36,775 nucleotides of DNA from a virus: positions 1-36,775 of IMG/VR virus record IMGVR_UViG_3300022200_000014; one strand, given 5' to 3'. The notes below the pieces were generated by a model, which was given only the letters and a program-made list of their open reading frames with translations, ran no database searches and was not told where the DNA came from. Numbering within the stretch: the first letter of the stretch is position 1; every line of letters starts with the position of its first letter. The position numbers and the translations under genes were made by a program. Positions 296 through 36,775 of the stretch are shown here, piece after piece.

Positions 296-485
296 ATAGC
301 GCCATGAAAACCGACCATCCATGCCCACCAATAACAAAATACAAACCACGCTCATTAAATATATTATTAACACTGCAATACATAAAACCATCGAAGTGAG
401 CGTACCGATAAACACCATCACGATACAAAATGTGTGTAGCGTGTGGGTGTGGCAATGACCACGGTGTAACGTTGTTATTTTCCAT
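294..485 (-). CDS. Small hypothetical protein (63 aa)
   Basis: I do not recognise this protein. I place the start at 485, where ATG overlaps the stop of the methylase gene by 11 bases and a GAGTGG-type ribosome site lies just upstream; a longer 72-residue reading from 512 has no comparable site. The product is rich in aromatic residues and histidine (WSLPHPHATHILYRDG, then a GHGW near the C-terminus) and has no membrane segment. The coupled overlap with the methylase suggests co-translation. The plus-strand terminator lies right after its 3' end but in the opposite orientation. Confidence 0.55.
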   Translation of the reverse strand: MENNNVTPWSLPHPHATHILYRDGVYRYAHFDGFMYCSVNNIFNERGLYFVIGGHGWSVFMAL

Positions 486-1047
486 AAAACCCCACTCTAA
501 AATCATGTTCAATAACTCTTGAAGGTACTTTAAGGCCTATTGGTGTAATTATACCAATTGCACAACTAAACTTTGGCCCTTGTGGTTTTCCTTTTTTATC
601 AAGAAACGGCGTACCGTCCGGGCGCAAAAATTGGAGTCTAAAAGGCATTTCGATAAACGTGTCGCAAACTTCCTTTAACTTGCGGCGATAAGTCACTTCA
701 GAATTGTTTGGTATAATCATTACCGTTGTAGTGCTAAATAATTCAGCTTGCTCAACTGCCCTTTCGATAAAAGGCATAACACTACTAAACGGTGGGTTGC
801 ACCAGGCAAGTGAACGTTCAAGATCAAAGCCTTCGCTGTCATGGCCGCGCCAATCTTTAAGCATGGCATCGTCACCATCAACCAATGAAATATAGTAAGG
901 CGCTTTCTTTGTTTCATATAAACAGCAAACATCTATATCAAACTTACCGCCTATAAAGCTTTCAACCGAATTAATTAGCCACCACGGAGTTTGCGCTAAA
1001 TCCTTTTCGCTTTCTGGTGTTGTTGAATTACTGTTATCTACTGACAT
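475..1047 (-). CDS. Phage DNA N6-adenine methyltransferase (Dam family, PF05869-like)
   Basis: This 190-residue protein should transfer a methyl group from S-adenosylmethionine to adenine N6 in phage DNA. Motif IV reads NPPF at residues 84-87. The family-typical start of the domain is present as TPWWL (about 20-24), followed by FDIDVC. The start at 1047 is chosen over one 17 codons upstream because AGAGG lies 8 bases before it and it clears the preceding gene's stop at 1064. Dam-type phage methylases commonly protect DNA from restriction or mark it for replication; which applies here is not visible. The target (GATC is usual) is inferred from the family only. A second adenine methylase domain is present in the 3033-residue protein. 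Confidence 0.85.
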   Translation of the reverse strand: MSVDNSNSTTPESEKDLAQTPWWLINSVESFIGGKFDIDVCCLYETKKAPYYISLVDGDDAMLKDWRGHDSEGFDLERSLAWCNPPFSSVMPFIERAVEQAELFSTTTVMIIPNNSEVTYRRKLKEVCDTFIEMPFRLQFLRPDGTPFLDKKGKPQGPKFSCAIGIITPIGLKVPSRVIEHDFRVGFYGK

Positions 1048-1063
1048 GGTTAATCCTCTAAAG

Positions 1064-1444
1064 TTAACTTTTTTCTGTGTATTCAAGCTTTCTACCAATT
1101 TTTGTTATAGCGCTTCTAATCTGACCTAGACGCCTTGATGCTATTGCGGCTTTCCGCTTTAAGTCACGATGTTTAACACAGTGTTTGCATGGGTCTATAC
1201 ATTCAAACGAATCTGTAAAATTAGGTGAACTATACGGGTGGCTTTCTTCCATGCAATTTAAAAGATCTTCTCTAGCTCTTGTGTAACAGGACTGACCAAA
1301 GGCGTGAAAATTATTTCCTTCACCAGCTGTGTAAAACCCCTCGCACAAGTGAAATTCAATTAGGCTTTTTGCTTTGAGATCTGCTTTTTTATCGGCCCAA
1401 TAAGCATGAGCTGCGACCAAGTTCTCCAGCTTAGATTGTTTCAT
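1064..1444 (-). CDS. Hypothetical protein with Cys/His cluster (126 aa)
   Basis: I recognise only a general resemblance to conserved phage proteins that sit downstream of replication genes; no function is known to me. The N-terminus (KLENLVAAHAYWADKK) is helical and basic. Residues 82-92 carry C-x3-C-x2-C with two histidines, a plausible zinc site, followed by a basic helix (residues 93-118). An ideal AAGGAG ribosome site lies 8 bases before the start at 1444, and the gene begins 4 bases after the preceding stop. The zinc site and basic helix would suit nucleic-acid binding, but that is inference. Confidence 0.7.
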   Translation of the reverse strand: MKQSKLENLVAAHAYWADKKADLKAKSLIEFHLCEGFYTAGEGNNFHAFGQSCYTRAREDLLNCMEESHPYSSPNFTDSFECIDPCKHCVKHRDLKRKAAIASRRLGQIRSAITKIGRKLEYTEKS

Positions 1445-21675: not shown

Positions 21676-22236
21676 ATGAGAGAGACAAATGCAAATCTTG
21701 ATGAAGGCCGATCGCTTGCCATAGTTGCGGCGGTTTCTTCAATGGACGTATTAGACCGAAGGGCAAAACTAGGAGCGCTTGAATCTGCAATGCTTCAAGA
21801 GGACCAAGTTAACATCCCCGTTAATCATCGTTTTAGTGGTGGCATATACGCTCGCGAAATAACTATTCCAAAAGGCACACTGTTAACTGGTCGCATTCAC
21901 AAGTTTGATCACTTTGATATTATGCTCAGCGGTGATGTATCTGTATCAACCGATACCGGCGAGGTTAAGCGGTTAACTGGCTTAAATATTATGGAAGGTA
22001 AAGCGGGTAAAAAACGTGCAGGTTACGCGCATGAGGATACTCACTGGATCACTTTCCACTGTGCTGAAGAGCGCGACCCTACAGAAATGTATCAGTTTTT
22101 AACTTGTGGCTCGTTTGAAGAGCTCGAAGATTTTAACCTAAGACTAGAACAGGCAATGGCTAAGCTAGCTAATGACGAAGCCGTATTGACTGACATAGCT
22201 AAATCAATAGTGAATAAGGGGGATTTATGTCAGTAG
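21676..22236 (+). CDS. Cupin-fold phage protein (186 aa)
   Basis: Residues about 51-130 look like a small RmlC-type cupin: HRFSGGIYAREITIPKGTLLTG, then H75-x3-H79 in RIHKFDHF, and a second half ending D121-T-H123-W. A helical N-terminus (about 12-40) and C-terminus (about 145-180) surround it. I recall similar proteins of unknown function near tail genes of other phages. Histidines in cupin positions could bind a metal or sugar. P22 has gp14 in this approximate position but I see no similarity. It overlaps the next gene by 10 bases. Confidence 0.65.
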   Translation: MRETNANLDEGRSLAIVAAVSSMDVLDRRAKLGALESAMLQEDQVNIPVNHRFSGGIYAREITIPKGTLLTGRIHKFDHFDIMLSGDVSVSTDTGEVKRLTGLNIMEGKAGKKRAGYAHEDTHWITFHCAEERDPTEMYQFLTCGSFEELEDFNLRLEQAMAKLANDEAVLTDIAKSIVNKGDLCQ

Positions 22237-22916
22237 TTGCAGCGGCGGTAATTGGTAGCGCGGTTGTTGGCGCGTACTCGGCCAGTAAATCAGCAAAAGC
22301 GCAATCTAGCGCAGCACAACAAGGCATGGATGCTGAAGAGCGCATAGCTTATGAAAACAGAGAATTACAGCGAGAGCTAGCAAACCAGCAGCGTGAAGAT
22401 TTTGCACCGTGGCGTGATGTTGGTGCGCAGGCTTTAGATAAGATTTGGGCCGGCGTTCAGTCTGGCGAATTTCAAGTAGGCAATATTGATGTAACCCAAG
22501 ACCCAGGCTATCAATTCAGAATGGACCAAGGTGTTAAGGCTTTGGATAGTTCAGCGGCTGCGAGAGGTCTTTTACTTAGTGGTGCGCAACAAAAGGGGAT
22601 CGCCGAATACTCGCAAGGATTAGCTAGTCAAGAATACGCTAACGCTTATGCTCGCGAGTCGAACGAGAAAGCGCGTCAATTTAATATCCTTTCTGGCTTA
22701 TCACAAGGCGGTCAATCTTCAGCAGCAGGGCAAGCGCAAGCCACCAGCCAACTAGCGGCGACTGAAGGTAATATAATGTCGAACCTAGGTCAGACTATGA
22801 ACCAAGGTTATCAAGCCCAAGGCCAAGCGAGAGCAGGCGCTTATCAAGGCATGGCGCAAGCAACAAACCAGGCGGCACAAAACTGGTTAACTTATAAAAC
22901 GATAGGAGCGTCTTAA
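22227..22916 (+). CDS. DNA ejection (pilot) protein, P22 gp7-like
   Basis: A 229-residue protein with the signature of P22 gp7 / DNA transfer protein relatives: an N-terminal small-residue hydrophobic segment (AAAVIGSAVVGAYSASKSAKA), REDFAPWRDVGAQAL, and DPGYQFRMDQGVKALDSSAAARG followed by LLSGAQQKG. The second half is Gln/Ala/Gly-rich and low complexity. P22 gp7 (229 residues) is packaged in the head and ejected to help DNA cross the envelope. The family match is good; the ejection role is by analogy. Confidence 0.82.
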   Translation: MSVVAAAVIGSAVVGAYSASKSAKAQSSAAQQGMDAEERIAYENRELQRELANQQREDFAPWRDVGAQALDKIWAGVQSGEFQVGNIDVTQDPGYQFRMDQGVKALDSSAAARGLLLSGAQQKGIAEYSQGLASQEYANAYARESNEKARQFNILSGLSQGGQSSAAGQAQATSQLAATEGNIMSNLGQTMNQGYQAQGQARAGAYQGMAQATNQAAQNWLTYKTIGAS

Positions 22917-22917
22917 C

Positions 22918-23793
22918 ATGGCAGCTAATCAGTATGGCATTGACCTTGGAGAAATCTACCGCACTAAAGCAGCGGTTGAAGGTGCGAGAACCCAAAACAA
23001 ACTATCATCATTACAGCTAAGCGAAGCAGAGCGAGAAGTAGCCCAGCGTCCAGAACGTGAGCGACAAGCTAACGAGCAACGCAATATGTTAACCGGATTA
23101 AGAAGCAAAGCCGTTGGCGGTGATGTTGACGCACAGCAGCAGTTACTAGCTTTAGATCCTGAAGGCGGCGCAAGCTTTATCAATGCTATAGGAACTATGG
23201 ACAAAACAAAGCGCGAAGCAGTTAAGCGAAGTGTTGATGAAATGGGGCAATTAGCTGGCTACGTGCTTCAAGGCAAAACACCGGAAGAGCAAAGCAGACG
23301 TTACGGTCTGATGCGACAAGGCGTCTCTAAAGAGGTCCAATCTAAATTACCCGAAAGCTTTGATCCTAACTTTATGGAATTGTCACTATCAAAAGCTATG
23401 GCAATGGATAAGATTTTAGAAAATCCTAAAGTGATCAAAGTCGGTGGTGAGGACGTTGTTTATAAGCAAGGTCGTGAAATTGAGCGAGCAGCAACGCCAG
23501 TTAAAGCGGCAAGCGGAACAGGTAGCGATGAATTAAAATCAGGTGATGAAAGCTTGATGTATAAGCAATCGGTTGAATTGTTAGGCGGCTTATTCGACCA
23601 GGCCGGTAACATAACAAACCTTGACCCAACGGTTAGAGGCAAAATCCAAGCTATCACTACCGAAGCAACTAAGATATTTCGTGCTGGTGGCGTTACACGG
23701 TCCGATGCAGTTGCGCAGGCAGCTAGTAAATTCGGAGTGCAAGTTCCAACCGCTAACAATATGAGCGATAATGATCCTCTAGGGCTACGCTAA
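22918..23793 (+). CDS. Probable internal/ejection protein (P22 gp20 position)
   Basis: A 291-residue, charged and mostly helical protein (LQLSEAEREVAQRPERERQANEQ; TPEEQSRRYGLMRQGVSKE). It begins 2 bases after the gp7-like gene and is followed 17 bases later by the giant polyvalent protein, so it sits where P22 gp20 lies between gp7 and gp16. No clear sequence match to gp20 is visible to me. The helical, soluble character and position make a second ejection protein or chaperone of the giant protein likely. Confidence 0.6.
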   Translation: MAANQYGIDLGEIYRTKAAVEGARTQNKLSSLQLSEAEREVAQRPERERQANEQRNMLTGLRSKAVGGDVDAQQQLLALDPEGGASFINAIGTMDKTKREAVKRSVDEMGQLAGYVLQGKTPEEQSRRYGLMRQGVSKEVQSKLPESFDPNFMELSLSKAMAMDKILENPKVIKVGGEDVVYKQGREIERAATPVKAASGTGSDELKSGDESLMYKQSVELLGGLFDQAGNITNLDPTVRGKIQAITTEATKIFRAGGVTRSDAVAQAASKFGVQVPTANNMSDNDPLGLR

Positions 23794-23809: not shown

Positions 23810-26800
23810 GTGAGCGAGTTCATTAAAGACTTCAGAATAAAGAACCCACAGTATAACGATATGGCTGATGACCAGTTGGTTACAGCCCTTCACACTAAAT
23901 ACTATTCAGACATTCCTATTGAGCAATTCAATCAAAAAATTGGCTTTCAGTCTTTACCTGGTGCGCTAGATGTTACACCGGTACAGGCTTATGTTGCACC
24001 AATCGAGCAAGATAATTCACCTTTTCAGGTAAATTCTTTACTAGAACAAGATAATTATTTACAACCTAATCAACAGATAGATGCTTACACCGGCGCAGCG
24101 TCAAAGCCTATTGAGCAGAAATCAATGATTGAGTTGATAGGCGATAAGCTTTCTGAAATTGGCGGCGGCATTGCTTCAGGTGTTGAGGGCGCATATCCAC
24201 AAGCTAAGCTTCAAGTGGCAGGATTAATGCAGCGCGGCGAGCCAATGACCGCAGAACAGTTTGAGCAGAAAAAGAATAATATCGGCATGGGTATGTTTAA
24301 TACCTATGACGACTATTTAAAGTTTGACCAGGTTAACAGACCGCTTTCAAATTTACTCGCAGACAAGGGCAAGCAGATTGCCACAGATACCCGCACAGAT
24401 TTAAAGCCTAGCCAGTTTGAAAAAGGTTCGCCAGGTTATTACTCAGAAGCCATTGCCGGTTCGGTGGTAAACATGCTGCCAACATTGGGCGTATCATTAG
24501 TTGGTCGCCGCCCTGATATTGGCTTGGGTATTATGCTCGCCCAATCAAAAGGTGGCGCGTATGAGTCCGGCAGACTTGAAGGCTTAACACCTCAAGAAGC
24601 CGACACGTATTCATCAATGATTGCTGCAGCAGAAGCAATACCTTCAGCTATTCCAGTAATGGCACTTTTAAAGCCTACTGGCAAAATCCTAACCGATATG
24701 GCTACAGCAGGCATTGCCGAAGCAGGCCAGGAAGGGTTAACCCAAGCAATTCAAGCAGGCATAGACAAAGGTTACATTAAACCTGATATGACTATGGCCG
24801 AAGCTATCGACCGCATTACAGAGGGCGCGATCATTGGCGCGGGTGCTGGTGCAACTATGTCGGTAGCCACTTCAAAGTTTGCCGACTCTATGAACGAGCG
24901 CGAAAAACAAAAGTTAATTGAAACACAGCTAGAAGCCGAATTTGATAAGTCGCTACCTGATGCCAATCAAGCGGAGCTAGATGCTATGTCGCCAGATAAG
25001 GCGCAAATCAAATCAACACAAGCAAATATTAACCAACAAAATCAAACGCTTGAAGCAAAGCGGCAAACGCCTGAAATGGTCGTTACCGCAAATATTGAAC
25101 CTCAAGAAATAGATAAGGCTAAGCCAGCACAACAAGAGCCGGTTGATTTCACTCCACCAGCTAAGGAAGCGGAAAAGCCAACTAAGCAACAAGTAACCGG
25201 TAAGCAAGTTGTTGAGGCGCCAATTGACGAGATAACCATTAGCAAAGACGTTCCACAGTTTAAAGAAGGTGCAAACGTTAAAGGTGTAGTTGAGCCATTA
25301 GGCGGCAAGTTTGAAAGAACAGGTGTAGCGCCTATACAAATTTGGGTTCGTGAAGATGGTCGAAAAGAAGTGATCAGCGGTCGCCACCGCTTAGACCTGG
25401 CCGAGCGAAGCGGCGAGAAGTCTATACCGGCACAATATCATTATGAGGCTGAAGGTTTCGGAGCAGATCAAGCGGCCGTACTCGATGCCATGTTAAATAT
25501 CCGTGAAGGTCAAGGAAAGGTAAAAGATTATGTCGATTTCATCAAAGCAACAAAACCAAGAAAAGCCGAAGCCGAATCACAAGGAATACTGGCAAGGCAG
25601 ACGGGAAAGCGGGCTTTCACAATCGCAACTGAAGGAAGTGATGCGCTCATTGCCAGCCACAGAAACGATCAGCTAACCGATGAAGCAGCCACAAGAATAG
25701 CCGAAGCAGCGCCGAAGAGTGAAAAACTTCAGGCCGTTGGCATAAAGGCTATTCAAGAAGGCAAAACGATTGCTGTAGCTGAAAACATGGTTAAAGCCGT
25801 TAAGTATATGGCAAGCGAATCATCACAAGACAGCGGTGATCTGTTTGGCTTTGATGACTCAGCAATGGTTGAGGCTGAAAAGCTAGCAAAGGCAGCAGCG
25901 AAAAAACAAGCTGAAATACAAAAGACCTTATCAGCGGTCCAGGGCGCGGCAAAAAACCCAGCGCTTGCGGCTAAAGAAGGAGTGGACGTTAAAGATCCTG
26001 AAGCGGTTAAGGCTAGGATTAAAGCTTTGCACGATGAAAAGCGCGAGTGGTCCAACTGGCACACTAACCCAGCGCTAGTATCAGAGCTAAAAGGCAGTGA
26101 CTTTAATTTATCCCAGGAAACTGAATCACAACGGGCTAGCCGTGAAAAGTCTGAAGCCGAAGCAAGTAAGACCATTGAAGCCGAAGCAAAGCAAAGCAGT
26201 GATATGTTTGAAGCCGACAAGCAAGTCGATGATTTTACATTAACAGGCTCAGACCGTTCGGCTGATGTTGCGGCGGCATCAGGCCAAACGGATATATTTT
26301 CACAGCCAGAAGTTAAACCGGAGCCAAAAAGCAAAAAGCTAACGCCAGAAGAACGCGAAGCGTTTATGGATAGCCTTGAAGAAACTCAGGCAATGATTGC
26401 CGAAGCTGGTAAGCGTGACAAAACTAACCCACGCTATAAGTCTTACCTTGATTCACTTGAGGAAGGCTCCGAACCTAGTAACCCTGATTACATGGCTTTC
26501 ATTGTAAAAATGGGTAAAGAATACCGTAAATCAAAAGGTTTGCGCAGTGATGCTGAAATAGGGCTGGACAAAGGTTTTACTGATTTTATAGCCAGCGCTA
26601 CCGAAAAAACCAGAACAGTAACCCAGGAAGATGTAAGCGACCAGGTACTTGATAGTTTTGAAACAGCGGAGCAGGCTAGAAAATGGCTTGCTAATAACGC
26701 AAAGGATCCAGTATTTAGAGAATTAGCGGAAAGCCTAACAAACCTTATACCTTCAGATATTGAGTTTACTCATTCAAAGGAAGAAGCTACCAGTAGCGGA

Positions 26801-29800
26801 AGGGTTAAAGGCCGGTACACTTACAAAGAGGCAAGCGGTAACGTTATCGATAACAGAGTCATCATTTACCCAAAGGGTAAGAATGAATCGACTTTAACCC
26901 ATGAGCTTATTCATGCCGCAACGTCTTACACTATTCGCAACCCTGAAAACGACACGCAAAAGAAAGCCATTAAGGATATTGAAGATCTAATAGTTCACAT
27001 TAATGCGCGTCAGTATCTTTTTGCTGAAGGCATTACAACAGAAGAGCGCAACTCTTTACGGTCCGGCCTTGGTAATGTTGACGAGTTTGTTACTCACAGC
27101 TTGACGCACCCAGCGTTTCAACGTGCGTTAATGAAAATCAAGCTACCAAATGACAATGAAACCGTATTCACTCGATTAGCTAAAGCGATTAAATCAATGC
27201 TTGGCATAAAAATGAGTGACGGCTATTTTGAGCGAGCTATTGCGGCTTCATCTAAGCTAATCGAAGTCACACCAGGCAGAGAAAAAACTAAGCTTGAAAC
27301 TGAAAAGTCTACCTTCCCAATCGCTAAGGCTGATCCGGATGCAGCAGAAGTTATCGGAGGCAATGAAAAAACAGATAGAAAGATAACAAGCGCAACATAC
27401 GAAAGGGCAAAAAAACGAACAGAAAAAAGCGTTGAGGGCTTTGTAAGTGGAAGCGGTTCTGGCGGGAATATTCCTGTTAAGTATAAATATGCTGAACACC
27501 CACTGGCTGCGTTTGATCAGTTTAAAGCATCTATAAGGAATCAAACCGCGACAGCAGATGAAATAAAATCAAGTGCAAAAGAGTTGGTTGATAATAAAGA
27601 TTCTGTTATTGCGGCTATGAGTGAAAGAGCGTTCACTAAAGCAATGCTTCAGGAGATCACACGTTCGCCACGTTCAGACCTTAAAAAACCTCAGATGGTT
27701 AAGCAGGCTTTCGAGTCCATGCTTTCTTCTCACGTTATGGCTGATGCAACCTTTACCATTTTTGGAGGCTCAAAGTCTTATGAAGAACAGATACTAGAAA
27801 AGGTAAATAACCAGACACAAGCCGATGTTGATAAAAACTACGAGAAGCAGCGCGAATACCGGGCAGAGCGAGCGAAGCAAAAAGAAACTTTTGTTAAGTC
27901 GCTTACTAACCCTGAAACGCTACCAGAGTTAAAAGAGTTTATTCGTGTTCGCGGCAAAGACAAGATGACCGCTGAGCAGCTTAAAACTTATGACGAGTTT
28001 GTTGCCGAATCAATGCGCGAAGAAGGTACGCCGGTAATTGTAAAAGGCGAAGCGGAAGCCATTAAAACCGAACGAGCTCAAACTAAGCACACTAAAACCG
28101 GTGATGATCTGTTTGTCGTTAAAATGGTAGGCCGTGTTGAGAAGGACCACTTCAGAGAATTGAGCGCAAAAGCCAAACAATTGGGCGGCTATTACTCTTC
28201 ATTTGCAAAAGGTGAAGCTATCCCAGGCTTTCAATTCAAAACCACTGAAGCGGCAGACCAGTTTGAACAGTTGTTAAATGGTGCTGACGTAGACAAAAGC
28301 AACTTCCAAGAAGCTAAGGCCGAAGTGAAGCAGGCTAAGAATGCCGACAAGCTTTTAGATATGGCTCAAAAGCTAGAGGATAAAGCTAACGAAGAGATTA
28401 ACCGGCCACGACAAGCAAACACAGCTAGACGCGCATCAATGGCGGCTGGTGGCATTGAGAGAGCCGAGAAGCAGTTAGCACTTGCTAAGACTGTTAGAAA
28501 CATTGCCATTAAACTTCAGGAAGGCACAACGGTTCACTTAGGCAAGCTAAGCCAGGTAACACAGCTTGAAGAGTTAATATCAATTCAAAACAGAGCAATC
28601 CCAAGCACAATGTACGAACATGGTTCATTTGATGGTTACTCTATTAATCGACCACTAAAAGACGGTGTGACGGTTGAGGATTACATTAACCTGGTTGAAC
28701 TGCCTGTTATCGAATTGGATAAAGGCATTGTTGGAAGAATTGCTGAATCGCTGAAGGGTAAAAAAGGTTATGCGCGTTTAGCGGCTGAACTTTCAAGGTT
28801 ACCACAAGGCAAGCGCGAACATTTATACAAACTAACCACTGAGCAAAGTGAAAAGATACTAGCAGCCAATAAAGCCGGTTTAATCGACACGCATTTAAGC
28901 TGGCTACCGGACCAAGTATCAACTCTTTCGCGTTTGAACAAATTGGGTATCACCACTGGCGAGCAGTTACGTGCCGCTATTCGTGAACTTGATTCTATGC
29001 GAGTGGCAAAGCGACAAGCTGATCCTATCAAAAAACTTGAGCGCGATTTAGTCGGTAAGAAAATTGAAGGCTTTTTTCCGACACCGACAGAGCTAGTTGA
29101 TCAAATGATTGATTACGCCGACATTCAAGAAGGCCATGAAGTGCTTGAGCCTTCAGCGGGTAAAGGTAATATTGCCGACCAAATAAAAGTATCGGCACCA
29201 AACGCCACACTTGATGTTGTTGAATACAACGCATCACTAGCCGCACTGCTTGAAGCCAAAGGTTATAACGTTGTAGGTAATGACTTCTTACAATACAAGG
29301 GTAAGCAGTACGACCGCATTGTAATGAATCCACCGTTTGAAAACTTCCAGGACATTGACCACGTAAAACATGCTTATGACTTATTAAAGCCTGGCGGAAA
29401 GCTGGTGGCTATTATGGGCGCAGGCGTTAAGAACTCGCGCAGCAAAGCGGTTGAGTTTAGATCATGGCTTGATGATATGGGGTCTTATATCGAAGATTTG
29501 CCAGAGGGCAGCTTTAAAAATGCTGAGCGCTCAACTGGTGTTAACACGGTAATGGTCACTATTGAAAAGAATGATGATAACACGCTTAGTTATAAAACAA
29601 CTGACAGCAAAGTTTCAAAGCCGTCAAAAACCGGTGAGCGCATTTTTAACGCGCCAGGCCATAACTATATTGGAATGTTTAGATCGTCAGGCGTACCGCT
29701 AAGACAAGAAGCGGTTACCATCGAAGGCCGCACGATTAGAGTGCCAGATAAACCGCAGCGCATTGAGCCGATAATGAGCAAGTTAATTGAGATTACCGGT

Positions 29801-32800
29801 CGCCGCATTTATTTCGGAAAGCTTAAAGGAAAATCACAGCAAGGATTTTACCGTCCTAATGTTGGCGAGATACGCACACGCCGCAAAAATGACATTGAAG
29901 TTTTAGCGCATGAAATGGCCCATTACTTAGATGTTTATTCAAACGTTACGCTGCCAAACTTCCAAAGGCTTTACAAGGAGGCCCGTTATAACAATGAAGT
30001 TAAAGCGCTCAGTTATACGGATGCAACGCCAAGACTTCAGCAGATTGAAGGCTTTGCTGAGTTTGTACGCCTATGGCTAACCAACTCAAACGAAGCACAA
30101 CTAAGAGCGCCAGAGTTTTACAATGCGTTTAATGAATTACTAGCCAGAGATAAAAAGCTATCTAGCAAGATGCGCGATATGCAAGAGCTTATGCACAAGT
30201 TCTACTTCCAAGGCGCAGACAAGTTAGGGCAGGCGTTAATAGGTAAGGATCTTTCATTTGGCCATAGATTTAACGAATGGAAATACCGCCGCGATTCGCG
30301 CATTCGTCAACAGTCTATTGACCGCTTTCATGCTGCTAGAAAGGTTGAGCAAGAGCTAACCCGTAAAATTGGTACCGTTGGCGAGTCTGCCTGGAAACAG
30401 TTACGCATTGCCAATGGTGGCGCTGAAGGGATCAGCGATTACATTCTTAACTATGGCACCGTTCAGTTTGATGAAGCCGGAGACTTGAAGCCAAGCGGAG
30501 CAAGCTTGCACCAGGTACTTGAGCCAGTTAAAACCATTACGGTTAAGCCTGAGCACAAAGGCACTCAAAAAATTGATTTGTTGATGCGTTACTTTGTTGG
30601 TCGCCGCGCTTTAGAGCTGCATCGTCAAGGCCGTGAAAACCTGATACCAAAAGAAACCGCTAAAGAGTGGGCCCGTCTGGGTTCGGATTATCCTGTGTTC
30701 GAAACCATTCAAAAAGAATACCAGGCGTTTAACGATCGCATGATGGACTTTTACGAAGAGGCCGGAATGATCACGGCTGAAGGTCGAGCTATTATGCAAT
30801 CAATGAACAAGGACTATGTACCGTTTAACCGTATACGTGATCAGTTAGCTGGTGGTAAAGGTGGAAAAGGCGCAGGTTTCCAAAAACTAAAAGGTGGTAC
30901 CGCAAACTTAAACGACATACTTGTAAACATTCAAGACGGCATTGTTGCCAACGTTCAAGCGGCATTAACTAACCGGGCTAAGCAGCGACTTTATCAATAC
31001 ATTTCAAACCATAAAGACGGTGCTATCTTTGCGACTAAAATATCAACCGACTCAAAGCCGGTTCAGGTTTACGCCGATGATATGCAGGCAAAGATAAAAG
31101 AAGTGTTAGAAAACAACGGCATACAGTTTGAAGGTGATTTAGATTTAGCGAGTAAAGACCTGCTTACATTCTGGCAGCATGGCGTGGCACCAAAATTAAA
31201 CGAGTCGGGTAACATTGTTGATTCAGTGATCATCAATGGCAAGCCGAAGTATTACGAAGTTCAAGATCCATTACTTCAAGAAATGCTTGTCGCTATGAAC
31301 CCTGAAAGCTATAGCTCGTTTATGAATGTGATGTTTGGCGTTAAAAACTTCTTTACCCGTTCGATTACTTTAGGCATTGAATTTACCGGCGCAAACTTAG
31401 TGCGCGATACGGTAGGAGCAACGTTCCTAAGCAAAAACCACTTTATCCCGTTTGTAAGTTCTTTCCAGGGAATGTACTCGTTTTTTGCTAAAGATAAGTA
31501 TTACCAGGACTTTATACGTTCAGGTGGCGGACACTCAGGCAGGCTTGAAGGCGCAACACGCGACAGCCAAGCAAGACGCAGAGTTAAGCTTGACGAGTTC
31601 GGCGTTATGACAGGGCCAGAAAGATTACTAAGCACAATCGATAACTTAGCCAGCGCTTTTGAATATGGCACACGTATCGGTGAGTTTAGGCTTTCAAAGA
31701 AAAGCGGTAAGTCAGATATGGACGCAGGCTTTGAAGCGCGAGAAATATCAACTGACTTTAGCGTACACGGCGCTAATCATTTCTTAACCGGCTACATTCG
31801 CACAGTGCCATTTTTAAACGCCATGGTGCAATCACAGGACCGTGTTTATCGTGAAGCATTGGTAAGTAAAAAATACAATGGCAACCCTACCGGTATGGCT
31901 ATGAAAGCAATGTTAGGAATTACTTTGCCAACGCTATTGCTTTACCTGGTGAACAAAGACGATGAAGATTACAAGGAGATCCCCGACTATGAAAAGCGCA
32001 CAAACTGGCATATTAAAACGGGTGAAGGTCAATTTGTAAAAATCCCACGCCCTTATGATGTTGGTTTTGTTTACGCGACAATGCCTGAGTTGTTTTTTAA
32101 GTATGTTGAAGATGATAAGGGTAAGGAGTTTGCAGAAGGTATGATCTGGACCATGACGCAAATGTATGGAATCGATGGTGTTCCGGCTGCTATGACTGGC
32201 TGGTGGGATATTGTCAGAAACAAAAAATGGACAGGTGCGCCGGTAATACCACAAGCGCTTGCTGATGTTGAAGCGCCAGAGCAATACTCTTCAAATACTA
32301 GCGAGACATTTGTTCGTATGGGTGAAGCGTTAAACCTTAGCCCAATCAAAGCAGAGCATATGTTTAAGGCGTATACCGGATACCTGGGCGGTTACCTATT
32401 GGCAGGCACAGATCATTTGCTTTGGAATAAGGATGAGTTTGGCGAGAAGCCAGAAAGCAAACTATCTGAAAACGTATTTTTGCGCCGCTTCCTTACGCCA
32501 GAAGTAAGACCGGCAACCGCTAACATGGAAAAGTTTTTTGAATTAAAAGAGAAATCAGACAAGATTGTTTCTACATTTAAACAAACCATTGACGTTCGCC
32601 GCGCTATCAAAGGTCAAAATGGTGAAGGCAAATTTAAGGATGATAGTTTCTACGGGTTAAGCGGAAAAGAGAAAGCCGTTTTATTTGCGCTTAATGACTC
32701 AATGAACGACTTGATTAAAATCATGTACGGCAAAGAGGGCATAAAGACAGCAGAGTTACAAATAAAGTATGATAAGACTTTAACAGGCAAGGAAAAGCGC

Positions 32801-32911
32801 GAAAAAATGGATAAGCTATGGCTTACCAGGAACGATGCATTTAGTAAATACTATAATCAAGCTAATCAGGCACTACAAAAAGCCAAACGAGAAGCTAACC
32901 AGGAGAAATAA
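23810..32911 (+). CDS. Giant polyvalent protein (3033 aa): ParB-like, zincin, adenine methylase, zincin, LPD38-like domains
   Basis: One frame of 9.1 kb, GTG start with AAGGAG upstream. Visible parts: an N-terminal motif FIKDFRIKNPQYNDM (4-18) common to phage internal proteins; a Gly/Ala-rich hydrophobic region (about 135-355); a ParB-like fold with GRHR at 524-527; HELIH (1031-1035), a zinc-protease site; an LPD-type module around GGYYSSF (1459-1465); an N6-adenine methylase with FFPTP (1755-1759), LEPSAGKGN (1779-1787) and NPPF (1840-1843); a second zincin with HEMAH (2034-2038) and EGFAE (2080-2084); and an LPD38-like C-terminal region (about 2480-2950). This is the architecture called polyvalent proteins. 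It takes the P22 gp16 position, so it is probably ejected with the DNA, perhaps disarming host defences. No nuclease activity is proven. Confidence 0.85.
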   Translation: MSEFIKDFRIKNPQYNDMADDQLVTALHTKYYSDIPIEQFNQKIGFQSLPGALDVTPVQAYVAPIEQDNSPFQVNSLLEQDNYLQPNQQIDAYTGAASKPIEQKSMIELIGDKLSEIGGGIASGVEGAYPQAKLQVAGLMQRGEPMTAEQFEQKKNNIGMGMFNTYDDYLKFDQVNRPLSNLLADKGKQIATDTRTDLKPSQFEKGSPGYYSEAIAGSVVNMLPTLGVSLVGRRPDIGLGIMLAQSKGGAYESGRLEGLTPQEADTYSSMIAAAEAIPSAIPVMALLKPTGKILTDMATAGIAEAGQEGLTQAIQAGIDKGYIKPDMTMAEAIDRITEGAIIGAGAGATMSVATSKFADSMNEREKQKLIETQLEAEFDKSLPDANQAELDAMSPDKAQIKSTQANINQQNQTLEAKRQTPEMVVTANIEPQEIDKAKPAQQEPVDFTPPAKEAEKPTKQQVTGKQVVEAPIDEITISKDVPQFKEGANVKGVVEPLGGKFERTGVAPIQIWVREDGRKEVISGRHRLDLAERSGEKSIPAQYHYEAEGFGADQAAVLDAMLNIREGQGKVKDYVDFIKATKPRKAEAESQGILARQTGKRAFTIATEGSDALIASHRNDQLTDEAATRIAEAAPKSEKLQAVGIKAIQEGKTIAVAENMVKAVKYMASESSQDSGDLFGFDDSAMVEAEKLAKAAAKKQAEIQKTLSAVQGAAKNPALAAKEGVDVKDPEAVKARIKALHDEKREWSNWHTNPALVSELKGSDFNLSQETESQRASREKSEAEASKTIEAEAKQSSDMFEADKQVDDFTLTGSDRSADVAAASGQTDIFSQPEVKPEPKSKKLTPEEREAFMDSLEETQAMIAEAGKRDKTNPRYKSYLDSLEEGSEPSNPDYMAFIVKMGKEYRKSKGLRSDAEIGLDKGFTDFIASATEKTRTVTQEDVSDQVLDSFETAEQARKWLANNAKDPVFRELAESLTNLIPSDIEFTHSKEEATSSGRVKGRYTYKEASGNVIDNRVIIYPKGKNESTLTHELIHAATSYTIRNPENDTQKKAIKDIEDLIVHINARQYLFAEGITTEERNSLRSGLGNVDEFVTHSLTHPAFQRALMKIKLPNDNETVFTRLAKAIKSMLGIKMSDGYFERAIAASSKLIEVTPGREKTKLETEKSTFPIAKADPDAAEVIGGNEKTDRKITSATYERAKKRTEKSVEGFVSGSGSGGNIPVKYKYAEHPLAAFDQFKASIRNQTATADEIKSSAKELVDNKDSVIAAMSERAFTKAMLQEITRSPRSDLKKPQMVKQAFESMLSSHVMADATFTIFGGSKSYEEQILEKVNNQTQADVDKNYEKQREYRAERAKQKETFVKSLTNPETLPELKEFIRVRGKDKMTAEQLKTYDEFVAESMREEGTPVIVKGEAEAIKTERAQTKHTKTGDDLFVVKMVGRVEKDHFRELSAKAKQLGGYYSSFAKGEAIPGFQFKTTEAADQFEQLLNGADVDKSNFQEAKAEVKQAKNADKLLDMAQKLEDKANEEINRPRQANTARRASMAAGGIERAEKQLALAKTVRNIAIKLQEGTTVHLGKLSQVTQLEELISIQNRAIPSTMYEHGSFDGYSINRPLKDGVTVEDYINLVELPVIELDKGIVGRIAESLKGKKGYARLAAELSRLPQGKREHLYKLTTEQSEKILAANKAGLIDTHLSWLPDQVSTLSRLNKLGITTGEQLRAAIRELDSMRVAKRQADPIKKLERDLVGKKIEGFFPTPTELVDQMIDYADIQEGHEVLEPSAGKGNIADQIKVSAPNATLDVVEYNASLAALLEAKGYNVVGNDFLQYKGKQYDRIVMNPPFENFQDIDHVKHAYDLLKPGGKLVAIMGAGVKNSRSKAVEFRSWLDDMGSYIEDLPEGSFKNAERSTGVNTVMVTIEKNDDNTLSYKTTDSKVSKPSKTGERIFNAPGHNYIGMFRSSGVPLRQEAVTIEGRTIRVPDKPQRIEPIMSKLIEITGRRIYFGKLKGKSQQGFYRPNVGEIRTRRKNDIEVLAHEMAHYLDVYSNVTLPNFQRLYKEARYNNEVKALSYTDATPRLQQIEGFAEFVRLWLTNSNEAQLRAPEFYNAFNELLARDKKLSSKMRDMQELMHKFYFQGADKLGQALIGKDLSFGHRFNEWKYRRDSRIRQQSIDRFHAARKVEQELTRKIGTVGESAWKQLRIANGGAEGISDYILNYGTVQFDEAGDLKPSGASLHQVLEPVKTITVKPEHKGTQKIDLLMRYFVGRRALELHRQGRENLIPKETAKEWARLGSDYPVFETIQKEYQAFNDRMMDFYEEAGMITAEGRAIMQSMNKDYVPFNRIRDQLAGGKGGKGAGFQKLKGGTANLNDILVNIQDGIVANVQAALTNRAKQRLYQYISNHKDGAIFATKISTDSKPVQVYADDMQAKIKEVLENNGIQFEGDLDLASKDLLTFWQHGVAPKLNESGNIVDSVIINGKPKYYEVQDPLLQEMLVAMNPESYSSFMNVMFGVKNFFTRSITLGIEFTGANLVRDTVGATFLSKNHFIPFVSSFQGMYSFFAKDKYYQDFIRSGGGHSGRLEGATRDSQARRRVKLDEFGVMTGPERLLSTIDNLASAFEYGTRIGEFRLSKKSGKSDMDAGFEAREISTDFSVHGANHFLTGYIRTVPFLNAMVQSQDRVYREALVSKKYNGNPTGMAMKAMLGITLPTLLLYLVNKDDEDYKEIPDYEKRTNWHIKTGEGQFVKIPRPYDVGFVYATMPELFFKYVEDDKGKEFAEGMIWTMTQMYGIDGVPAAMTGWWDIVRNKKWTGAPVIPQALADVEAPEQYSSNTSETFVRMGEALNLSPIKAEHMFKAYTGYLGGYLLAGTDHLLWNKDEFGEKPESKLSENVFLRRFLTPEVRPATANMEKFFELKEKSDKIVSTFKQTIDVRRAIKGQNGEGKFKDDSFYGLSGKEKAVLFALNDSMNDLIKIMYGKEGIKTAELQIKYDKTLTGKEKREKMDKLWLTRNDAFSKYYNQANQALQKAKREANQEK

Positions 32912-32913
32912 TT

Positions 32914-35412
32914 ATGTCAGTAGCTATGATTGGCCCTAAGTTTTACGCATGGGACCGCAACGGTAAGCCTTTGGCGTTTGGCAAGCTTTACACTTATCAA
33001 GCGCGAACTAATTACCCGAAAGCAACTTACAACACTGAAGATCAGATCACAGAAAACACTAACCCAATTATTTTAAACGGGGAAGGTTACGCTGATGTTT
33101 ATCTTGACGGCGCATATAAAATGGTGCTCAAGGATAAAAACGATACTGAGATTTGGACCAGCGATCCGGTAACAGGGGAGCAGCTTGGAGAGTGGTCCGT
33201 TTGTCTGGCAGCATCTTATGTCAGCCCTTCGTCAATAATTGTGTCGGGTAATTTCTCTGCAAAATACAAGCCTGGCGGCAGAGTCAGAGTTGATAATGGA
33301 ACATCAAGTTATTCTTACGCAAATATACTTACGTCATCATTTGCAGGCGGTGAAACTACTATAGAGCTAAGCAGCCCGGTTGTGTCTACTGGGGTTTCTG
33401 GCGTATGCGTATCTTCTGTTACTCAAGATTCCATACCAGATAGCAATCCTGGCAACGTTAACGAGTTAAAAGCGTTTGGTTATTCGCAAGGGCAAGAGAT
33501 TAAAACAAAAGGATATTATGTCGCTGGTGATGGTGGAGGGGCTTCTTACTTGATAAAAACTGTAAGCCAAGCAGCATCTGACGATGATGTCATAGATGGT
33601 TATGGAAACCACTTAATGAGTAACGGGTGCGTTGCTATCCTTCAGGCTGGCAAAACGCTAATGCCGGCGAGATTTGGCCTTAAAGGTGGTGGGAATAACG
33701 ACTCTCAAGCGTTTATAGCGATGAAGAACATAGCTATTAAGAAAAAAGCTGAAATAGCTATAATTGGCGAGTTCTACAGTATTTTACCAGATATTTTATC
33801 GCTATCTGATGGGGAAAATTTAAAAATAACAGGGTTAGATCGTGAAAATTCAGGCATCAAGGCTTATGGCGCTGGTGACAATATGATTACATTGGCTGAA
33901 ACGTCAATGCTATCTATGAGTAATTTGTCTTTAAATGCAAGTGAGTTTGATTGCGGATTAATAAGAGGCTCTGCGACAGGCTCTGGTTTTGTAGGGGTTA
34001 GCGCTGACGGATGCTATTTTGACTGTTCAGGATCTGCCACTAAGCATGGAATTTTCTTATCTGGTAATTTGAAAAATGTCGTTATAACTAATAACATTTT
34101 TCAAGGAAGCTTAACCCCTTCAAGGGTTGGGGCTTTATATCAACTTCAGCGGTTATTATCTGTACCTGATGATGGGACTGATAGTGACGATACAAATCTG
34201 ATTGTAGTCAAATACAATACATTTAAGAACGGTGCAACTCAGTTTTCCACGTTTGGGACTGCGCAGGCGATAAGCCCTCTACACGTTGTAGGCAACACTT
34301 TTTTAGATGCCGAGTGCAGATCAATGCACCTTTACCATTCGGAAGAAAGCCTTATTAGCAAGAATTTAATCAAAGGATGTAAAGGCAGACGACCCACAAT
34401 AGCCGATAACAATATAGGTGGGGCTGTATGGTTGGATTTATACAGTCCTCTTGTAGACGGTTCAAGAAACTCTTCTATTTACTCTGACAACATAGTCAAG
34501 AAATGCAACGGTGTAGGAATATTTGTAGAAGAGTTTTCAGGAACGCTTTCCGGTTGGAGTGTGCTAGAAACTGGTATTTTCCTAGACGGATTCATTTATG
34601 ATAACTCTAACGGCTTTGCAACCACTGGCGGATTTGGGTTTGTTGTTACCGGAGGAAGTAAGCGGTTTACGTTGGCGTGTAGGGCAGACGGGAATGTTAC
34701 AGGAGTGGTAATTGATAGAAGCCTAGGCATAGCTCCTACGCTACAAATCGGGGTTGTAACAATATTAGGCAGTCACATTGATGAAAATAAAGAGCATGGT
34801 GTTTTAATTAGAAACCAAGTTAGAATGTTTCAGATGATAGGTGGTACATGCCTGGGGAATGGAAAGTCGTCATCCGGGAATTATGACGCAATACACATAA
34901 CAAGAGACAGCTTAGATTCAATAACAAGCTTTGAAGTTAAAGACGTTGTGTTTGATGACGAGTCAACAACGGTGGCGTCTAGGCACTGCATTAATAAAAC
35001 TTACGCAGGCGGTTACGGCGACATACAATCAAACAGATTAAACAGCTTATCAGAGTGGGTTAACTCAGGAGGAACTTTCGTTGGGCAGATTGAAAACAAC
35101 AACTGCATAGGAAGCAGGGGCTTTTTGTTGTCAGGTAGCGAACGATGGTATCGTAACAATAGAGGGTATAAAACTGAAGAGTACGCTAACCTTTTGGTTA
35201 CAAATGGCTTTGCCGAATACACTCATACTTTATCAGCTAGTGCAGACATGGCATTTGTTGCCGTAAAGGATAGCTCTACAACTCCGGTTATCATTGCTTC
35301 AAACGTGCTATCGTCAAAGGTTAGCGTGAGGCTTTATGATTCTGGCGGTTCCTTGTTAAATGTTGACAAAAATGTCTCGATAAAAGTTATGACTTCAAAA
35401 AGCCTAGGGTAG
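32914..35412 (+). CDS. Tailspike with beta-helix, receptor-binding
   Basis: An 832-residue protein. Residues about 1-90 are a head-binding-type domain common to phage tailspikes (FYAWDRNGKPLAFGKLYTYQ, YKMVLKDKNDTEIW). A linker region contains GGGASYLI. From about 250 to 700 the sequence has the short repeating strands with N-x-I/F pairs (VVITNNIFQGS, VVGNTFLDA, LISKNLIKGC) of a right-handed parallel beta-helix, as in pectate lyase and P22 tailspike. The likely role is binding and cutting a surface polysaccharide. The active site cannot be picked from sequence. The C-terminus is a beta-rich trimer cap. It is the last gene of the plus arm and its stop abuts the opposite gene's stop. Confidence 0.85.
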   Translation: MSVAMIGPKFYAWDRNGKPLAFGKLYTYQARTNYPKATYNTEDQITENTNPIILNGEGYADVYLDGAYKMVLKDKNDTEIWTSDPVTGEQLGEWSVCLAASYVSPSSIIVSGNFSAKYKPGGRVRVDNGTSSYSYANILTSSFAGGETTIELSSPVVSTGVSGVCVSSVTQDSIPDSNPGNVNELKAFGYSQGQEIKTKGYYVAGDGGGASYLIKTVSQAASDDDVIDGYGNHLMSNGCVAILQAGKTLMPARFGLKGGGNNDSQAFIAMKNIAIKKKAEIAIIGEFYSILPDILSLSDGENLKITGLDRENSGIKAYGAGDNMITLAETSMLSMSNLSLNASEFDCGLIRGSATGSGFVGVSADGCYFDCSGSATKHGIFLSGNLKNVVITNNIFQGSLTPSRVGALYQLQRLLSVPDDGTDSDDTNLIVVKYNTFKNGATQFSTFGTAQAISPLHVVGNTFLDAECRSMHLYHSEESLISKNLIKGCKGRRPTIADNNIGGAVWLDLYSPLVDGSRNSSIYSDNIVKKCNGVGIFVEEFSGTLSGWSVLETGIFLDGFIYDNSNGFATTGGFGFVVTGGSKRFTLACRADGNVTGVVIDRSLGIAPTLQIGVVTILGSHIDENKEHGVLIRNQVRMFQMIGGTCLGNGKSSSGNYDAIHITRDSLDSITSFEVKDVVFDDESTTVASRHCINKTYAGGYGDIQSNRLNSLSEWVNSGGTFVGQIENNNCIGSRGFLLSGSERWYRNNRGYKTEEYANLLVTNGFAEYTHTLSASADMAFVAVKDSSTTPVIIASNVLSSKVSVRLYDSGGSLLNVDKNVSIKVMTSKSLG

Positions 35413-35784
35413 CTAGCGTAAGTTCATAACAAAAAAATGCTTCATATCTTGGTACAAGTAAACGGATTTACTTGTATTATCTATAACGTAACCGTCAACT
35501 AGTAAAACCATATGAGCCTCGCCTTCTATGGTTTTTACTACTAGCTTTTCCCCTTTACCTAATACGCGTTGAATGTATAAGGCATAGTCCTCGCAATCGC
35601 CAATGAGTGATGTTACCCACTTATCTTCTACTCCGTATTGGTCCATATCGGTAATATAAACGTGATGCGACAAAGAAACAGTGTGCAAGTATTGCAATTG
35701 TTCTAGCCTGGTTTGTGGCCAATTGTTATTAACAGAGCAAGAAGTTAAAACGATTAATGTTAACGCTAATAAAATCTTGCTCAT
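35413..35784 (-). CDS. Lipoprotein with minimal transglutaminase-like cysteine protease fold (BTLCP/LapG-like)
   Basis: A 123-residue protein. A signal peptide ends in the lipobox LTSC with Cys16; Ser at +2 suggests outer-membrane sorting. The mature part (108 residues) has Cys64 in GDCEDYA, His91 in EAHMVLL and Asp102 in VIDN, the order and spacing of bacterial transglutaminase-like cysteine proteases such as LapG (COG3672/BTLCP type), though much smaller than usual. It may cut or modify a surface protein, or alter receptors against superinfection; neither is shown. The ATG at 35784 with AGGTGA 5 bases upstream is chosen over GTG at 35793. It is the last gene of the minus-strand nin-type arm and abuts the tailspike gene. 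Confidence 0.7.
   Translation of the reverse strand: MSKILLALTLIVLTSCSVNNNWPQTRLEQLQYLHTVSLSHHVYITDMDQYGVEDKWVTSLIGDCEDYALYIQRVLGKGEKLVVKTIEGEAHMVLLVDGYVIDNTSKSVYLYQDMKHFFVMNLR
35453..35476. repeat. Perfect 10-bp inverted repeat with 4-base loop near the convergent gene ends
   Basis: TACAAGTAAA (35453-35462) and TTTACTTGTA (35467-35476) pair perfectly around CGGA. It lies inside the lipoprotein coding region, 41 bases past the tailspike stop. Neither strand has a T-run directly after the stem (minus-strand T7 at 35431-35437 begins 15 bases beyond), so it is not a canonical terminator, but its place beside the convergence point suggests an effect on one or both transcripts. Confidence 0.7.
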
Positions 35785-35809
35785 TGTGATCACCTATTCA
35801 GTTTGAATT

Positions 35810-36412: not shown

Positions 36413-36775
36413 TAGAAAAAACTCAATAGTTGATTATATGTGTTTTCATCCGCAGTTTTAAAAACGTGCTTCATTGCGGCCCTGGTCAACGCTAAGTAGC
36501 ACTCTTCAAATTCTTCTTGTGACATTGCAGAAAACGAAAGTGATTTAGCCTCAACACGCAAATCACCATGTATTGATACGAATTGATCATAGAAGCCAGC
36601 CAGCACAGTTAAGTGATTGCGGAAAACATCAAATTGTTTTGATTCACTTTGATACTGATTAATACCGGCCCAATACTCAAAGCAGAAATTAAAAAATGCA
36701 AAAACCTTGCGGTGAAACTTTGGGTTTCGAGTTAGTTTAATTTCAACCTGGTATTGCTCGCCTGTTTTAAATTTG
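36412..36775 (-). CDS. DUF1367 family protein, C-terminal part (continues through the circular join)
   Basis: This is the remainder of the gene that starts at 201; bases 36649-36775 duplicate 1-127 and should be counted once, giving a 145-codon gene plus stop across the join. The C-terminal part reads VLAGFYDQFVSIHGDLRVEAKSLSF-type beta/helix sequence followed by MSQEEFEECYLALTRAAMKHVF, a helix typical of the family's end. The stop shares a base with the ninG start. There is no frame break at the join, which supports correct circularisation. Confidence 0.8.
   Translation of the reverse strand, partial: KFKTGEQYQVEIKLTRNPKFHRKVFAFFNFCFEYWAGINQYQSESKQFDVFRNHLTVLAGFYDQFVSIHGDLRVEAKSLSFSAMSQEEFEECYLALTRAAMKHVFKTADENTYNQLLSFF
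36649..36775. repeat. Right copy of 127-bp terminal direct repeat
   Basis: This is identical to bases 1-127. Removing one copy leaves a 36,648-bp circle. Confidence 0.93.

Follow-up and report, generated by a model that had tools for sequence, protein, structure and literature searches.

The polyvalent proteins of phages described by Iyer et al. (2017, PMC5512222) combine an MPTase, an adenine methylase and an LPD domain and are encoded in a late-gene neighbourhood. DarB of phage P1 and the Bcep22-like DarB proteins, JC1 gp69 and BcepIL02 gp70, are likewise giant and methylase-bearing. In P1 DarB, 30 residues at the N-terminus are enough to direct the protein to the capsid (PMC9024508), and JC1 gp69, a DarB-like protein of 4515 aa occupying 22.1% of its genome, was represented by 51 peptides in purified virions (PMC9144972). 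Zincins are found in the N4 virion RNA polymerase (vRNAP), whose C1 domain carries HExxH (PMC12633501), and in PhiM1 gp48, a tetrameric ejection protein that forms part of a capsid-housed ejectosome (PMC11440229). The largest gene of Shewanella phage X14 holds a conserved methyltransferase domain (PMC9011153), and Vibrio phage VvAW1, which is P22-like, devotes 28% of its 38.7-kb genome to a 3640-aa DNA methylase / DarB-like protein.

We report the analysis of a giant gene of a small marine phage, the IMG/VR virus record IMGVR_UViG_3300022200_000014, of which the whole stretch analysed, referred to here as the window, spans 36,775 nucleotides; coordinates refer to its plus strand unless otherwise indicated. 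New here, as judged by comparison of sequences, is a slot whose contents relatives have swapped at least four times; it is flanked by a conserved head on one side and by the methylase-zincin-LPD38 core, also conserved, on the other.

The giant gene and its lineage

The giant gene is a single frame (23810-32911, +) with a GTG start, AAGGAG just 5' of it and no internal stop. It encodes 3033 aa with a predicted mass of 338 kDa, and both the GTG and the first residues of the protein are kept in relatives. Since the window carries a 127-bp direct terminal repeat (1-127 = 36649-36775), the genome has a closed length of about 36,648 bp, of which the gene makes up 24.8%; this bears out the original prediction of a 3033-residue protein taking some 25% of the genome.

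The late operon around this gene is P22-like, with a terminase large subunit, P22-type portal, scaffold, P22 coat (PF11651, 1.5e-42), adaptor, head closure and short tail fibre. These are followed by a gp7-like DNA-ejection protein gene (22227-22916; phrog_598, 9.6e-45), a gene at the P22 gp20 position that is syntenic in relatives (22918-23793; phrog_36852, 3.8e-112), the giant gene itself and a further large gene (32914-35412), a tailspike by position, whose counterpart in X14 is annotated as such. Placement of the giant gene at the gp16 position is confirmed by this order, in which it is third in the ejection cluster, as in P22. No sequence homology to P22 gp16 was found; a tblastn search with the head region listed 28 phage records, with P22 not among them. 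Elsewhere in the window, a small transglutaminase-like cysteine peptidase gene (C93/BTLCP, 1.8e-10; 35413-35793, minus strand) lies directly downstream of the tailspike-position gene; the early region holds a separate Dam-type adenine methylase gene (475-1098, minus strand; PF05869, 1e-19), giving the phage two adenine methylases; and a short repeat with a 10-bp period (CTGGGTTTGTTTGGGTTT), possibly origin iterons, lies at 2681-2768 within a putative replication initiation gene.

Orthologues of 2631-2741 aa occupy the same locus in Thalassomonas phage BA3 (BA3_0002), in X14 (Bocovirus) and in the Vibrio phages 1.183.O, 1.211.A, D478, 41E34.2 and vB_ValP_FGH, and the relatives compared also include 17 IMG/VR loci. 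The window protein is covered by PHROG 15406 (2210 bits) and belongs with the BA3/X14 giant proteins of that family, having the same locus and a matching head and core. The giant gene is thus one of the core genes of a podophage lineage that was already known. The BA3/X14 orthologues share its head, its position and its methylase-zincin-LPD38 core (about 69-79% identity over residues 1236-1935), whereas the window protein is some 300 aa longer and carries a zincin, zincin 1, in the second part of the slot (slot B), and the first part (slot A) differs in several relatives. VvAW1, a phage of similar size, shares with the window a head block (residues 193-367, 40%) and zincin 2 with the C-terminus (36%), but gives no BLAST match across window residues 1240-1925. 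So large a protein in a P22-like virion, which had been singled out as notable, is not exceptional, since it is a core product of a known lineage and is exceeded in size by those of VvAW1 and JC1.

The conserved head and core

Residues 1-47 (23810-23950) form a candidate capsid-targeting or ejection signal. Identity is 76-85% among close relatives and 52% (6e-7) with the N-terminus of the giant protein of Ruegeria phage 45A6, a phage that is otherwise different; because of this sharing, and because the first 30 residues suffice in DarB, we read them as a putative targeting signal. The head region proper (residues 60-430; 23987-25099) has hydrophobic stretches at 214-232 and 269-287, occurs as two divergent alleles within the BA3/X14 lineage and is common to the giants of VvAW1, Skulduggery, Itty13, Pondi and PTXU04.

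The core opens with a helical domain upstream of the methylase (residues 1236-1400; 27515-28009), delimited by alignment and by a model with pLDDT of about 70-90; the input to one of the structure predictions consisted of the window and the IMG/VR loci. A small domain of about 85 aa follows (residues 1405-1495; 28022-28294), modelled as a compact alpha/beta unit with the signature H-x-K-x-G ... AK-LGGYY ... PGFQF, for which no matching Pfam family or PDB chain was found. We regard it as an independent module because in Ruegeria phage 45A6 it follows the methylase instead of preceding it. The segment 1236-1940 has at least 568 relatives in IMG/VR, some of which may not cover this small domain; for the core as a whole, 259 phage records contain a match to at least a part. 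The suggestion that the unassigned stretches at about 700-960 and 1180-1420 may hold new domains is therefore upheld in part: residues 1405-1495 form an independent, uncatalogued domain and 1236-1400 a helical one that accompanies the methylase, while about 700-940 is mostly the tail of the ParB-like module and linker.

The N6-adenine DNA methylase (residues 1750-1935; 29057-29614) carries a SAM motif (EPSAGKGN, 1780) and NPPF (1840) in a Rossmann methylase fold, matches TaqI by profile and retrieves type I M subunits and TaqI as top hits in a fold search; it is very probably active. The best PADLOC match of this segment (residues 1714-1924; 28949-29581) is MADS mad2 (1.7e-20), above generic type II methylases. 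Zincin 2 (residues 1943-2210; 29636-30439) has HEMAHYLD at 2034-2041 and EGFAEF at 2080-2085, placed in the model on an HExxH helix and a Glu-bearing helix respectively, as in zincin metallopeptidases, and residues H2034, E2035, H2038, E2080 and E2084 are invariant in 27 sequences. Its profile gives weak matches in the PDB (0.03-0.16), and a scan of contigs from bacterial assemblies yielded only three relatives, all distant. Zincin 2 has an Asp three residues past the HExxH, as does one phage MPTase group of Iyer et al. (PMC5512222). In the methylase and zincin 2, dN/dS against relatives is about 0.04-0.06, which shows that selection keeps them. Towards the C-terminus, the LPD38-like domain that had been predicted is certain, matching Pfam PF18857 at 5.5e-45 (residues 2718-2890; 31961-32479).

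The protein combines at least two unrelated enzymatic or DNA-binding domains with an LPD-class domain and is encoded among virion genes, like the phage-type polyvalent proteins of Iyer et al. (2017); its designation as such is supported by a methylase, two zincins and LPD38 in one chain at the gp16 position. It differs from the proteins they describe in having no helicase, in its uncatalogued domain at 1405-1495 and in slot exchange at the level of the lineage. The SF2 helicase module of DarB-like antirestriction proteins gave no match in the window through Pfam, PHROGs or NCBIfam, and BcepIL02 gp70 is only 27% identical to it over the methylase (4e-5). The motifs on which the domain assignments were founded lie at their predicted residues (SGRHR 523, HELIH 1031, NPPF 1840, HEMAH 2034, EGFAE 2080) and exceed chance, the zincin residues being invariant in 39 and 27 relatives and the methylase a clear family match; the HExxH and NPPF sites all fall inside confidently modelled, enzyme-like domains, contrary to the structural outcome that would have counted against the original prediction.

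The exchangeable slot

Residues from about 430 to 1235 are replaced block-wise among relatives, with head and core kept. In the window, slot A (residues 470-760; 25217-26089) holds a tentatively assigned ParB-like module, which is replaced in relatives. The module is conserved, but PHROG 3264 matches it only weakly (E 0.009); of 20 relatives, 5 match ParB_N (0.011 at best), and there was no ddrB-ParB and no PDB match. Slot B begins with a linker and helical segment (residues 760-944; 26087-26641), delimited by alignment and by an intermediate relative, and continues with zincin 1 (residues 945-1134; 26642-27211).

The exchange is clearest between phages that are otherwise nearly identical. BA3 and the relative L016 agree at 96% over the head and 98% over the core, and slot A is an unassigned module in the former and ParB-like in the latter. 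Similarly, L007 and L019 (head 90%, core 98%) carry a HEVGH zincin and a ParB module, respectively, the place of ParB in L015 is taken in L013 by a GNAT module (Pfam Acetyltransf_1, 4e-4), and L130 combines ParB with GNAT-like modules. Mapped onto the core tree, the slot-A type changes four times, each change being forced by well-supported branches; shuffled labels average 4.7 changes, so the result shows repeated replacement and not clustering. Slot B is variable too, and L022 represents an intermediate form of it. The alternative slot-A modules include the HEVGH zincin of L007 (about 570-720), a LYRETN...LALGQG module in L004 (about 540-680) and a helical module in L018 (about 590-830); of these three only the L007 zincin is recognisable, by its motif. 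Two further readings were discarded: an ART assignment of the BA3 slot module finds no support in Pfam, and the recurring linker motif GSDRxAD...GQ..LF, considered as a possible processing site, was seen just three times among 1.2 million residues, with no match in phages.

Zincin 1 carries HELIH at 1031-1035 and a third-ligand candidate, E1092; the H/E/H residues and this downstream Glu are invariant in 39 relatives, and pLDDT in the model is mostly above 90. A family profile built from the 39 sequences matches, in the PDB, the internal virion protein 9sfn (5.7e-42), PhiM1 gp48 (8vb2, 1.9e-15), gp10 (23sg, 1.9e-12) and N4 vRNAP (11fw, 5.8e-8). A fold search of the PDB places N4 vRNAP and 8vb2 at the top, followed by a zincin protease, with individually weak E-values of 0.03-0.13. 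Of the 26 matches found in a viral library at E <= 0.001, those with names are for the most part virion RNAPs, internal core or structural proteins and polyvalent proteins. By profile and predicted fold, zincin 1 is a zincin (MPTase) of the N4 virion RNA polymerase type. N4 vRNAP has an RNA polymerase domain, which the window protein lacks, having a methylase instead. Beyond the motif, zincins 1 and 2 show no detectable likeness to each other.

Apart from one contig with 100% identity, no close relative of the window carries zincin 1. The closest copy known belongs to Vibrio phage 1.205.O (57.9 kb), a phage that has its own giant protein of 3130 aa; identity between the two phages is 52% over zincin 1 (66% in DNA over 647 nt) and 32% over the core. 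This gap suggests transfer of the module, the alternative being different rates of evolution.

Packaging, function and meaning

Packaging of the giant protein in the virion and its ejection are, from its homologies and gene position, highly probable. Ejection is strongly suggested by the homology of zincin 1 to solved ejection proteins. DarB and JC1 gp69 have been shown in virions. In Salisaeta icosahedral phage 1 (SSIP-1, L033), the protein with the core, at 35% identity, is gp43, and its annotation is that of a structural protein. SSIP-1 is tailless and icosahedral, and its possession of the same methylase core indicates that the module crosses virion types.

The best explanation, which we hold to be reasonably probable, is that the giant protein is polyvalent and packaged in the virion, where it would be the third of the ejection proteins and the largest; the phage itself is P22-like and belongs to the BA3/X14 (Bocovirus) lineage. 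The conserved N-terminus would target the protein to the capsid, from which it would leave with the DNA, and the hydrophobic head may aid membrane passage or anchoring. The core methylase, clear from its fold, could mark adenines of the DNA on its entry, ahead of expression of the phage's own Dam; the chances of this counter-restriction role appear about even and, because the phage also encodes a stand-alone Dam, the need for a methylase in the virion is something that we infer. Zincin 2, with its invariant active site, would cut the polypeptide into working parts, an assignment that we make tentatively and against which counts the N4 vRNAP, which carries such a zincin yet is packaged unprocessed (PMC5512222). 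The middle, as the comparisons show, is the exchange site at which lineages recombine in alternative modules, in this case a ParB-like module plus an N4-vRNAP-type zincin, and these may be host-specific helpers or counter-defence effectors.

A different use of the zincins, as effectors directed at host proteins, such as those of restriction or defence, which they would cut in place of the phage polypeptide, is among the alternatives listed by Iyer et al. (2017; PMC5512222) and would suit the occurrence of zincin modules in the exchangeable slot in two lineages. We consider it rather unlikely, for zincin 2 in particular, whose constancy in the lineage is a better fit to a general role such as processing. 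Slightly less likely still is that the protein is mainly a building block of the ejectosome, part of a transient DNA conduit, in which the zincins are structural or act at the assembly stage. The closest solved relatives of zincin 1 are indeed ejectosome proteins, the gp16 position and hydrophobic head would fit, and N4 vRNAP is packaged uncleaved (PMC5512222); however, the catalytic H/E/H/E residues are invariant over 27-39 diverse sequences, the methylase is under strong purifying selection and the variable slot contents are unlike a fixed conduit. That the protein is not packaged at all, but is an intracellular late enzyme lying beside the ejection genes incidentally, is improbable: one published reading does assign the gene to a module of transcriptional regulation (PMC9011153), but several unrelated phages have homologues that are virion proteins, and the position after the ejection genes is constant. 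An assembly chimera as the origin of the zincin-1 cassette is the least credible, since, although the only other copy among close relatives is in the identical contig, whose sample may be related, the frame stays open, homology to 1.205.O runs collinearly and in frame, and slot B of L022 is of an intermediate form.

Giant ejected proteins are already known, and the swappable middle is the new part. We propose, with some reserve, that the packaged polyvalent protein serves as a chassis for delivery, in which the targeting head and the methylase-protease core are constant and an internal slot swaps counter-defence or take-over enzymes, much as bacterial polymorphic toxins swap effector domains, and that the swap helps to decide which hosts can be infected. 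The analysis also points to an uncatalogued domain of about 85 aa beside this methylase in many phages, and the zincin links podophage polyvalent proteins to solved ejectosome proteins. A curiosity of size thereby becomes a testable system, in which near-identical phages such as BA3 and L016 differ in one module of a probably injected protein, and comparison of natural phages that differ in the slot can show what the modules do.
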